From: an uncultured Eggerthellaceae bacterium
GTDB lineage: Bacteria; Actinomycetota; Coriobacteriia; Coriobacteriales; Eggerthellaceae
DNA length: 48,374 bases
Direction of reading: 5' to 3'
Assembly (NCBI GenBank): GCA_947650915.1
Contig: CANSWY010000012.1
Span: forward strand, 1 to 48,374
Made by a program: the position numbers and the translations under genes. Below, in pieces: positions 4,638-43,022 of this stretch; the first letter of the stretch is position 1, and each line of letters opens with the position of its first letter. The notes below the pieces were generated by a model. That model was given only the letters and a program-made list of their open reading frames with translations. It had not been told where the DNA came from and ran no database searches.

Positions 4638-4645
4638 CGCTCATA

Positions 4646-4760
4646 TGCAAAAGGGACGTCCCTTTTGCACATCAGGCAGCCTAGCAGGTGCAATTTGGGA
4701 CGTCCCTTTTGCACATCAGGCGATCTCGCGGGTGCAATTTGGGACGTCCCTTTTGCACAT
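4646..4760 (+). repeat. Three repeat units, the first a 24-bp perfect palindrome
   Basis: The first unit (4646-4669) is a perfect 24-bp palindrome formed by the outer half of a left-type unit joined to the outer half of a right-type unit at the GACGTC centre. Two right-type units follow (4687-4716 and 4731-4760), separated by short linkers of the CAGGC...CGGGTGC type. The palindrome starts nine bases after the regulator's stop codon and may end its transcript. Confidence 0.85.
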
Positions 4761-4881
4761 CAGGCTCGATCGCTTAGGTTCGTTTCGGCGCTGAGACCTT
4801 ACTCAGAACGCGCAATGAGAGCCTGAGCGCCCACCCTTCGCGCGCGCACGCGCGCGATGCCCTATGGTGCCCGACAAGCAC

Positions 4882-5059
4882 GCGAAAGCGCGAAAGCCGT
4901 GCATGCAGAAGGCTGATGTGCAAAAGGGACGTTCCAAATTGCACATAGAAGAAGTCTTCCAGTGCGCATCGTCTTTTGCTATGTGCAATTTGGGACGTCC
5001 CTTCTGCACATCAGGCGACCTCATGGGTGCGATCTGGGATGCCCCTTTCGCGCTTTCGC
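4882..5059 (+). repeat. 96-bp inverted-repeat element A with outer arms
   Basis: The left arm (4916-4946), the 34-bp centre in forward orientation (4947-4980) and the right arm (4981-5011) make 96 bp. Outside these, a 15-base segment at 4882-4896 is the exact complement of 5045-5059, so the structure is nested. One arm position is not matched (left CAAAAG, right CTTCTG). The element lies between the regulator and the flavoenzyme genes. Between 4763 and 4880 I see only a short alternating CG run (4839-4856). Confidence 0.9.
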
Positions 5060-7905: not shown

Positions 7906-8098
7906 ATGTGCAGAAGGGACGTCCCAAATTGCCCAGAGCGGGAACGTCTCCTGATGTGCAAAAGGGACGTTCCAAATTGCACATAGGAATAGAGAATGAG
8001 TACTGAAAGACTGCTCCTATGTGCAATTTGGGACGTCCCTTTTGCACATCCACATCGCCTTTTCCCTATGTGCGATTTGGGAGGCCCCTTCTGCACAT
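7906..8098 (+). repeat. Nested inverted-repeat element B (four units)
   Basis: The inner element is 96 bp: arms 7954-7984 and 8019-8049, centre in reverse orientation. An outer left unit (7906-7936) and an outer right unit (8068-8098) flank it. The inner arms carry CAAAAG/CTTTTG and the outer arms CAGAAG/CTTCTG, so each nested pair matches itself. The cluster separates the convergent SDR and feo genes and could end both transcripts. Confidence 0.92.
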
Positions 8099-11466: not shown

Positions 11467-11620
11467 ATGTGCGAAAGGGACGTTCCAAATTGCACATGGC
11501 TGGATGGGGGATGTGCAAAAGGGACGTTCCAAATTGCACATAGGAAAAGAGGTTGAGCACTGAAAGACAGTTCCTATGTGCAATTTGGGACGTCCCTTTT
11601 GCACATCCCTTTTGCACATC
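11467..11620 (+). repeat. Inverted-repeat element C (three units plus a half)
   Basis: An outer left unit with the CGAAAG variant (11467-11497) precedes the 96-bp element: arms 11511-11541 and 11576-11606 (CAAAAG/CTTTTG matched), centre in reverse orientation. A 14-bp half unit (11607-11620) ends exactly at the stop codon of the neighbouring membrane-protein gene. Confidence 0.92.
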
Positions 11621-13211: not shown

Positions 13212-13354
13212 ATGTGCAGAAGGGACGTTCCAAATCGCGCAGAGGAGAGGTCTGTCGGATGTGCAGAAGGGACGTTCCAAATTGCACATAGAAAAAGAGA
13301 ATGAGCACAGAAAGACTGTTCCTATGTGCAATTTGGGACGTCCCTTCTGCACAT
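13212..13354 (+). repeat. Inverted-repeat element D (three units)
   Basis: An outer left unit (13212-13242) and a 96-bp element with arms 13259-13289 and 13324-13354, both of the matched CAGAAG/CTTCTG variant; centre in reverse orientation. The right arm lies inside the 3' end of the GT-C-like gene and supplies its last codons and stop. Confidence 0.92.
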
Positions 13355-20137: not shown

Positions 20138-20214
20138 CGGGTTGTGGCTCAGCTTGGTAGAGCGCTGCGTTCGGGACGCAGAGGCCGCAGGTTCAAATCC
20201 TGTCAACCCGACCA
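20138..20214 (+). tRNA. tRNA-Pro (anticodon CGG)
   Basis: A full cloverleaf: acceptor stem CGGGTTG pairs with CAACCCG. The D-arm is GCTC...GAGC, and the anticodon stem CTGCG/CGCAG carries loop TTCGGGA, giving anticodon CGG, which reads CCG proline codons. The T-arm has the GTTCAAATC loop region. The 3' ACCA is encoded in the DNA. CCG is expected to be common in this GC-rich genome. Confidence 0.96.
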
Positions 20215-20369
20215 TGAACGTCGCAGGCCCGGTGCTGAAAAGCATCGGACCTGTTTCACTTCGCGAGATTTGAACCACCGGTTCGCACCGAAACCGTCCA
20301 CTGGACGCTTTCGGTGCACGCTCAGGCGAAATCCTGTCAACCCGACCATGAATGTCGCAGGCCCGGTGC
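20195..20369 (+). repeat. Direct duplication of the tRNA-Pro 3' end
   Basis: The 41 bp at 20195-20235 (end of the T-arm, acceptor 3' strand, ACCA and 21 bp beyond) recur at 20329-20369 with one mismatch, 134 bp apart. The DNA between holds a long imperfect hairpin around 20285-20318 and no gene. Either a tandem duplication or the scar of an element that integrated at the tRNA. Confidence 0.8.
20225..20252 (+). terminator. tRNA-Pro terminator
   Basis: A 12-bp stem with one mismatch and a GAAA loop, followed by GTTTC, starts 11 bases after the tRNA. Confidence 0.6.
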
Positions 20370-20425: not shown

Positions 20426-20673
20426 ATGTGCAAAAGGGACGCCCCAAATTGCACCTGTTCGGGTGGGCGATGTGCAAAAGGGACGTCCCAAATTGCACAT
20501 AAGAACAGACGGTGAGCACTGGAAGACTGTTCCTATGTGCAATTTGGAACGTCCCTTTTGCACATCAGGCAACCTCGCAGGTGCAATTTGCCCGTGCCCG
20601 GCTCACCGATGAGCACCGGGCTTTTGCACATCAGGCAACCTCGCAGGTGCAATTTGGGGCGTCCCTTTTGCCG
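20426..20673 (+). repeat. Inverted-repeat element E, with one unit carrying a clpB fragment
   Basis: An outer left unit (20426-20456) and a 96-bp element (arms 20470-20500 and 20535-20565, centre reverse) are followed by two right-type units. The first of these (20580-20631) has its GGACGTCC core replaced by foreign DNA: 20588-20620 is identical to 33 bp of the clpB gene. The last (about 20646-20671) is degenerate at its end. This is the only copy whose arm asymmetry is reversed (GGAAC in the right arm rather than GTTCC in the left). It lies between the tRNA region and purH. Confidence 0.92.
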
Positions 20674-25133: not shown

Positions 25134-25352
25134 ATGTGCAAAAGGGACGGCACCCATTGGGCGTGATGTGCGAAAGGGACGTTCCAAATTGCACAGAGGA
25201 AGAGAGAGCCTGCAAAGGAAAGACTGTTCCTATGTGCAATTTGGGACGTCCCTTTCGCACATCTTGCGATCAGGGAAGGCCCTTTCGCACATCTTGCGAT
25301 CAGGGAAGGCCCTTTTGCACATCTTGCGATCAGGGAAGGCCCTTTCGCACAT
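25134..25352 (+). repeat. Inverted-repeat element F with three tandem 30-bp half units
   Basis: A decayed outer left unit (25134-25164) is followed by a 97-bp element (arms 25166-25196 and 25232-25262, matched CGAAAG/CTTTCG variant, centre reverse). Then come three tandem 30-bp units (25263-25292, 25293-25322, 25323-25352). Each has CTTGCGATCA fused to the outer half of a right arm, with alternating C/T/C at one position. From 25353 to 25515 nothing is recognisable. Confidence 0.92.
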
Positions 25353-25515
25353 CTCCGGGAGCGTTGCACCAGGGACCAGGGAGCTGCGCGCGGAGCACGA
25401 TGAAGCCTGTTATTGAAAGCATCAGCCCGCAAAGACCGCGACAGCTGAGCGCCCGCAGGGCGAACAGCTGACACATGCGAAGCGCACGGGCGATGCCTGC
25501 ATGAATAATCTCTGG

Positions 25516-25641
25516 ATGTGCGAAAGGGACGTTCCAAATTGCACATAGGAAGAGACCTTCTGCACTGTTTCGCTTCTGCTATGTGCGATTTGGGACGTCC
25601 CTTTTGCACATCCTGCGATCAGGGACGTCCCTTTTGCACAT
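25516..25641 (+). repeat. Inverted-repeat element G plus one half unit
   Basis: A 96-bp element (arms 25516-25546 and 25581-25611, CGAAAG against CTTTTG, a G-U-compatible pair; centre forward) is followed by a 30-bp half unit (25612-25641) of the same CTGCGATCA type as in element F. Its last base is the final base of the purF stop codon. Confidence 0.92.
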
Positions 25642-28405: not shown

Positions 28406-31120
<2,715 letters not shown>

Positions 31121-35502: not shown

Positions 35503-35642
35503 ATGTGCAAAAGGGACGTTCCAAATTGCACATAGGAAATGGCTGAACGCACTGAAAGACTGTTTCTATGTGCAATTTGGGACGTCCCTTTTGCACATCA
35601 GACGAACTCACGGGTGCGATTTGGGACGTCCCTTTTGCACAT
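35503..35642 (+). repeat. Inverted-repeat element H (three units)
   Basis: A 96-bp element (arms 35503-35533 and 35568-35598, CAAAAG/CTTTTG matched, centre reverse) is followed by an outer right unit (35612-35642). The 13-base linker before that unit is the same as in element I, although H lacks the matching outer left unit. Confidence 0.92.
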
Positions 35643-36090: not shown

Positions 36091-36276
36091 GATGTGCAAA
36101 AGGGACGTCCCAAATTGCACCCGTGAGTTCGTCTGATGTGCAAAAGGGACGTTCCAAATCGCACATAGGAACAGTCTTCCAGTGCGTTCGGCCATTTCCT
36201 ATGTGCAATTTGGGACGTCCCTTTTGCACATCAGACGAACTCACGGGTGCAATTTGGGACGTCCCTTTTGCACATC
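36091..36276 (+). repeat. Nested 186-bp inverted repeat, element I (four units)
   Basis: The outer left unit with linker (36091-36135) is the exact complement of 36232-36276 over 45 bp. Inside is a 96-bp element: arms 36136-36166 and 36201-36231, centre forward. The whole folds into a stem of about 81 bp with two mismatches and a 24-nt loop. It lies between the ferredoxin promoter and the 3' end of hypE. Confidence 0.95.
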
Positions 36277-42883: not shown

Positions 42884-43022
42884 TGTGCAAAAGGGACGTT
42901 CCAAATTGCACATATCCGGATGAGCGATGTGCAGAAGGGACGTTCCAAATTGCACATAGGAACAGTCTTCCAGTGCGCATGATCCATTTCTATGTGCAAT
43001 TTGGGACGTCCCTTCTGCACAT
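42883..43022 (+). repeat. Inverted-repeat element J (three units)
   Basis: An outer left unit (42883-42913, CAAAAG) precedes a 96-bp element with arms 42927-42957 and 42992-43022 (matched CAGAAG/CTTCTG) and the centre forward. It separates the convergent peptidase and clpC genes. Confidence 0.92.

Follow-up and report, generated by a model that had tools for sequence, protein, structure and literature searches.

The closest described counterparts of the repeats analyzed here are the REP and REPIN elements, which published accounts present as short palindromes that occur hundreds of times per genome, usually paired in inverted orientation across a spacer of constant length, accompanied by extra tandem units and absent from relatives (PMC3116915; PMC3733652). 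CGTC-tagged REPs are described as abundant palindromes without a dedicated tyrosine transposase (PMC3733652). Here, we describe a palindromic repeat family of an uncultured Eggerthellaceae bacterium and a single unit of this family that is interrupted by a short copy of clpB.

A REP-like palindrome family and its interrupted unit

The interrupted unit was found in a stretch of 48,374 nucleotides (the window) that represents one whole contig (C12) of a draft assembly (1,977,045 bp, 50 contigs, 98.6% complete). The repeat unit is GTGCRATTTGGRACGTCCCTTYYGCAC. A 26-base search pattern, equal to this unit minus its first G, gave 417 forward and 437 reverse exact matches in the 1.98-Mb assembly, that is, at least 854 units by exact-pattern count, and no matches in any of 59 further genomes of the family, among them the congener. 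The presence of at least 854 copies in less than 2 Mb represents a very large species-specific expansion, apparently recent, with no transposase found beside the units. Most of the 116 sampled arrays are built on an inverted unit pair (<>), with a spacer of 38 bp in 98 of the 111 centres, and the arrays often grow outward by extra units with a 44-bp period. The unit core is GGGACGTCCC or GGAACGTCCC in 303 of the 341 sampled units.

Short palindromes, hundreds of copies, inverted doublets, a constant spacer, extra tandem units and absence from relatives are all features that the family shares with REP and REPIN elements as the cited accounts describe them (PMC3116915; PMC3733652). The inverted doublet, short spacer and high copy number expected of REPINs are thus present, and extragenic position was judged within the window only. 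Unlike the REPINs of these accounts, the units carry no GTAG or CGTC end tag, no Y1-type transposase gene is flanked by units as in the association of REPINs with RAYT, and the pairs are extended outward by units of 44-bp period (PMC3116915; PMC3733652). The units end in ...GTGC/GCAC and have CTAT and ATC on the outside. For all six Y1_Tnp loci in the assembly, no consensus unit was found at a distance of up to about 1.5 kb. With the CGTC-tagged REPs, the family shares the abundance of palindromes and the lack of a link to a tyrosine transposase, but here CGTC lies in the unit core and not at the end (PMC3733652). Because there is neither a GTAG or CGTC end tag nor a RAYT neighbour, we refer to the family as REP-like and not as REPIN. 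Elsewhere in the assembly, at L143 and L145, two of the six Y1-type transposase genes lie near other palindrome families (CGTAGCGCAGGCTTCAGCCTGCGAA; CGTAGGGCAGGGGCTTGCCCCTGCC), as in REP-RAYT pairs.

Arrays are located in the window at 4645–5009, 7956–8047, 11469–11604, 13261–13352, 20428–20673, 25136–25350, 25518–25609, 35505–35640, 36094–36273 and 42885–43020. At 25250–25354, a normal unit is followed by head-to-tail degenerate half-units of 30 bp (TTGCGATCAGGGAAGGCCCTTTCGCACATC), a mode of array growth unlike the 44-bp period.

The array at 20428–20673 is REP-like and inverted, contains two ordinary units on each side in addition to the interrupted unit, and lies between a tRNA-Pro gene (20138–20214) and the 3′ end of purH. 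The features of the array and of the donor gene are as follows (ordinary units and the array itself by unit scan).

20428–20673, no strand: array of <<>> type with the interrupted unit, between tRNA-Pro and the purH 3′ end
20428–20454, minus strand: outer left unit, core GGGGCGTCCC
20472–20498, minus strand: inner left unit, core GGGACGTCCC
20537–20563, plus strand: inner right unit, core GGAACGTCCC
20555–20590, plus strand: 36-bp direct repeat CTTTTGCACATCAGGCAACCTCGCAGGTGCAATTTG, first copy
20581–20629, plus strand: interrupted unit, GTGCAATTTG + 30 bp + CTTTTGCAC
20591–20620, plus strand: net insertion of 30 bp with clpB as its source; the identity covers 33 bp when the shared TTG (20588–20590) is counted
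20621–20656, plus strand: 36-bp direct repeat, second copy
20647–20673, plus strand: outer right unit, core GGGGCGTCCC, right end degraded
28406–31120, minus strand: clpB, donor gene (NCBIfam TIGR03346, 1275.8 bits, above the ClpB equivalog cut-off)
30483–30515, plus strand: donor sequence, antisense strand of clpB codons 202–213, first Walker A

Upstream of the array, a 24-bp copy of the 3′ end of tRNA-Pro itself is located at 20329–20352, about 134 bp downstream of the gene and just before the array, and a similar hairpin, rich in GC, comes after it. This piece may represent a second, degenerate tRNA or else the end of an old integration.

The clpB copy and the duplication around it

The 33-mer TTGCCCGTGCCCGGCTCACCGATGAGCACCGGG occurs at 20588–20620 and 30483–30515, on the plus strand in both cases. 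The first-pass annotation had described this identity, its position and its strand exactly, and its assignment of the piece to the Walker A region of clpB also holds, the donor comprising codons 202–213 with the first Walker A. With up to three mismatches allowed, these two places are the only ones in the 1.98-Mb assembly, and the donor is therefore clpB and not another AAA+ gene. As an alternative donor, any other AAA+ gene was rejected on the same grounds, none being found within three mismatches anywhere in the assembly; the longest exact run shared by clpB and the second Clp gene is 21 bp. The match is real and its donor unambiguous.

The interrupted unit is composed of GTGCAATTTG, CCCGTGCCCGGCTCACCGATGAGCACCGGG and CTTTTGCAC, in this order. 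Since TTG at 20588–20590 is common to the unit and the donor, the net insertion is 30 bp and not 33 bp. The interrupted unit lacks precisely the 8-bp GGACGTCC (or some variant) of normal units, a segment symmetric about the dyad. The insert is bounded by a perfect 36-bp direct repeat, 20555–20590 being identical to 20621–20656, and each of the 36-bp flanks consists of a half-unit, a linker and a half-unit. The core had initially been read as replaced by clpB DNA; the clpB copy stands, and the identical flanks make replacement only one of two possible histories (see below). The left junction has 3 bp of microhomology (TTG) and the right one has none, and 3 bp at a single junction is near chance level. 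Together with the next C, the insert forms a hairpin that exceeds in strength about 99% of random 31-mers from the window (p of about 0.01 to 0.04, depending on counting). The interrupted unit thus still folds, and the strength of the hairpin may hint that the ability to form one mattered, or may be due to chance in a single example.

The direction of copying can be deduced from the congener (G001), in which the purH-to-clpB synteny is kept, with about 80–83% nucleotide identity over these genes. The congener clpB occupies the same syntenic place and differs from the donor at two of 33 positions, and neither an array nor a tRNA was found in the 795 bases examined beside its purH. As clpB is conserved and syntenic in the congener and the array is absent there, the copying went from clpB to the array. 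The insert carries the clpB state of the source species with zero differences, so that, to judge from the sequences compared, the copy is recent enough to have retained full identity with clpB.

Proposed origin of the insertion

We propose, with a probability of about 0.8, that the 30 bp are the scar of a templated insertion that arose in a single mutational event with the distant clpB as template. A templated insertion had been suggested in the first-pass annotation, and it is supported by the single distant donor, the position of the insert at the palindrome dyad, and 3 bp of microhomology on one side with none on the other. In the proposed scheme, a 3′ end lying inside a palindromic unit and terminating in ...AATTTG would have annealed by its TTG to clpB, some 10 kb distant; 30 nt would have been copied from clpB before the end was released; and a join requiring no homology would then have linked the released end to the right arm of a unit, CTTTTGCAC. 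The priming side, the break or stall at the palindrome, the polymerase and the joining pathway are the parts of this scheme that we infer.

Because an identical 36-bp repeat is present on both sides of the insert, two histories fit. In the first, a half-unit, linker and half-unit would have been duplicated in tandem over 36 bp and the clpB piece would have filled the junction of this duplication, all in one event starting from an ordinary 2+2 array. In the second, the array would already have had an older third, normal unit (GTGCAATTTGGGACGTCCCTTTTGCAC), and its 8-bp core GGACGTCC would have been swapped out. The 2+2 arrangement is found in 19 of the 116 sampled arrays, versus six for 2+3. When one tandem run with 3-base linkers is set apart, the sampled arrays contain no more than two halves of three units (L124 and L131, with 17-bp linkers) in which successive linkers are identical. 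The greater frequency of 2+2 over 2+3 and the scarcity of identical linkers mildly favour the one-step duplication. We therefore slightly favour the first history, although a single example cannot separate the two.

Searches of the 98.6%-complete draft at E values up to 0.001 revealed no homologue of Ku and none of SbcD; in a control search, 13 of the 14 reference genomes gave SbcD-like matches. A gene may be missed in a draft, but with no Ku found, classical bacterial NHEJ is unlikely, and with no SbcD found, hairpin cutting by SbcCD is not the preferred route. Two known pathways, Ku-independent end joining and template switching at stalled forks (here primed by microhomology), are the likeliest routes to the clpB insertion. 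The assembly as a whole is packed with palindromes and has no detected SbcD or Ku, and loss of SbcCD could be related to tolerance of repeats.

A variant of the templated-insertion scheme, in which clpB mRNA and not the gene served as the template, is improbable. The side with microhomology corresponds to the top-strand 3′ end ...TTG, at which the extension product is complementary to clpB mRNA, and such an arrangement is compatible with a break at the palindrome having been filled from an RNA template.

Alternative explanations and relation to templated insertions

One assembly, a draft of 50 contigs rich in 30-bp repeats, underlies what is observed here: the identity and its donor, the one-off status, the duplicated flanks and the microhomology. 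An assembly or amplification chimera, in which read chimerism or a graph mis-join made the 33-bp junction, is the rival that survives best. It is still unlikely: a chimera would require two false joins, independent of each other and separated by 30 bp, that left both half-units intact with exact 36-bp repeats around them, donor and acceptor are located in one contig with an intact clpB, and assembly word sizes are normally above 33.

Retention of the piece for a function is very unlikely. The orientation is compatible with such a role, since the array is antisense to clpB on its plus strand: a transcript entering it from tRNA-Pro would include 33 nt perfectly complementary to clpB mRNA and could thereby tune clpB. 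However, the target codons 202–213 lie deep in clpB, far from the start; no terminator, promoter-like site or known RNA was found in the array by simple scan or Rfam, tRNA being the only Rfam family; and recent copying explains the perfect identity equally well. A regulatory antisense role is thus unlikely, and the clpB scar is probably without function.

The idea, raised in the first-pass annotation, that the array takes up genomic pieces as its normal behaviour and acts as a capture site is not supported and very unlikely for this genome. Genic DNA, the clpB piece, is held by one unit, and one more half-unit abuts a different palindromic repeat family. In the latter case (L154, at G000:C34:3140), the half-unit runs straight into the repeat CACGAAGGGACGGAGGATTCGTGACCT, which is also present at L124, L133 and L152; L154 is a repeat nested in or joined to another repeat. 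Against capture, only one core among more than 850 units is replaced by other genomic DNA, and three pattern designs found no replaced core elsewhere in the whole assembly. Arms 13–43 bases apart occur at 23 places, of which 22 are a normal unit followed by a partial unit and one is the interrupted unit. A left arm followed by a non-G base occurs at nine places (seven point variants of normal cores, the interrupted unit and L154), and a right arm without a preceding CC only in partial or degenerate units, coding matches and the interrupted unit. The widest design, with both arm variants allowed, returned the interrupted unit alone, and inserts that start with G and exceed 43 bp can be missed by such designs. 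The partial units beside arrays are bits of units and not of genes.

A search for self-matches of at least 20 bp in 279.5 kb of non-redundant sequence of this genome also points to a one-off, by the criterion that the first-pass annotation itself had set: among the matches listed (the best 120 of 149), no other unit or linker matches a gene, and the only gene-to-unit match is that of clpB. Outside the unit family, the same best 120 of 149 self-matches are paralogous coding pieces and other repeat families, the remainder being tRNA ends, tandem repeats and overlaps of adjacent sequence pieces. When 84,980 named genomes were scanned for units whose core holds a long non-G insert, 35 scattered loci in unrelated taxa emerged, which are probably chance matches. 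Viral contigs contained no unit and no clpB junction. The clpB insert is thus a one-off, and the repeats of this genome show no capture system.

Convergence or chance likeness is excluded by the length of the match for practical purposes: P-loop codons are conserved and GC-rich and Clp paralogues share runs of 20–21 bp, but here 33 exact bases lie within a non-coding repeat, no other AAA+ gene comes within three mismatches, and shuffled windows gave no match to the 33-mer even with up to three mismatches, which, with only one other genomic place, agrees with the original view that the match is not due to chance.

If the junction is true, it represents a clean and recent insertion from a distant template at a short palindrome, in a bacterium without detected Ku or SbcD. 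It would also serve as a fossil record of how error-prone repair acts on REP-like arrays, and as evidence that such arrays can grow via junctions falling in the palindrome centre. No bacterial precedent for templated insertion or quasipalindrome switching appeared in the titles and abstracts searched. The clpB insertion differs from the known routes of templated insertion in that it is a single bacterial case and, Ku not being found, does not correspond to the Ku/LigD route. It resembles the templated insertions ascribed to microhomology-mediated template switching and alternative end joining in that a distant sequence is copied exactly over a short length at a junction, with few bases of microhomology and a local duplication around the insert, and it is a fresh example of an already known kind of mutation.
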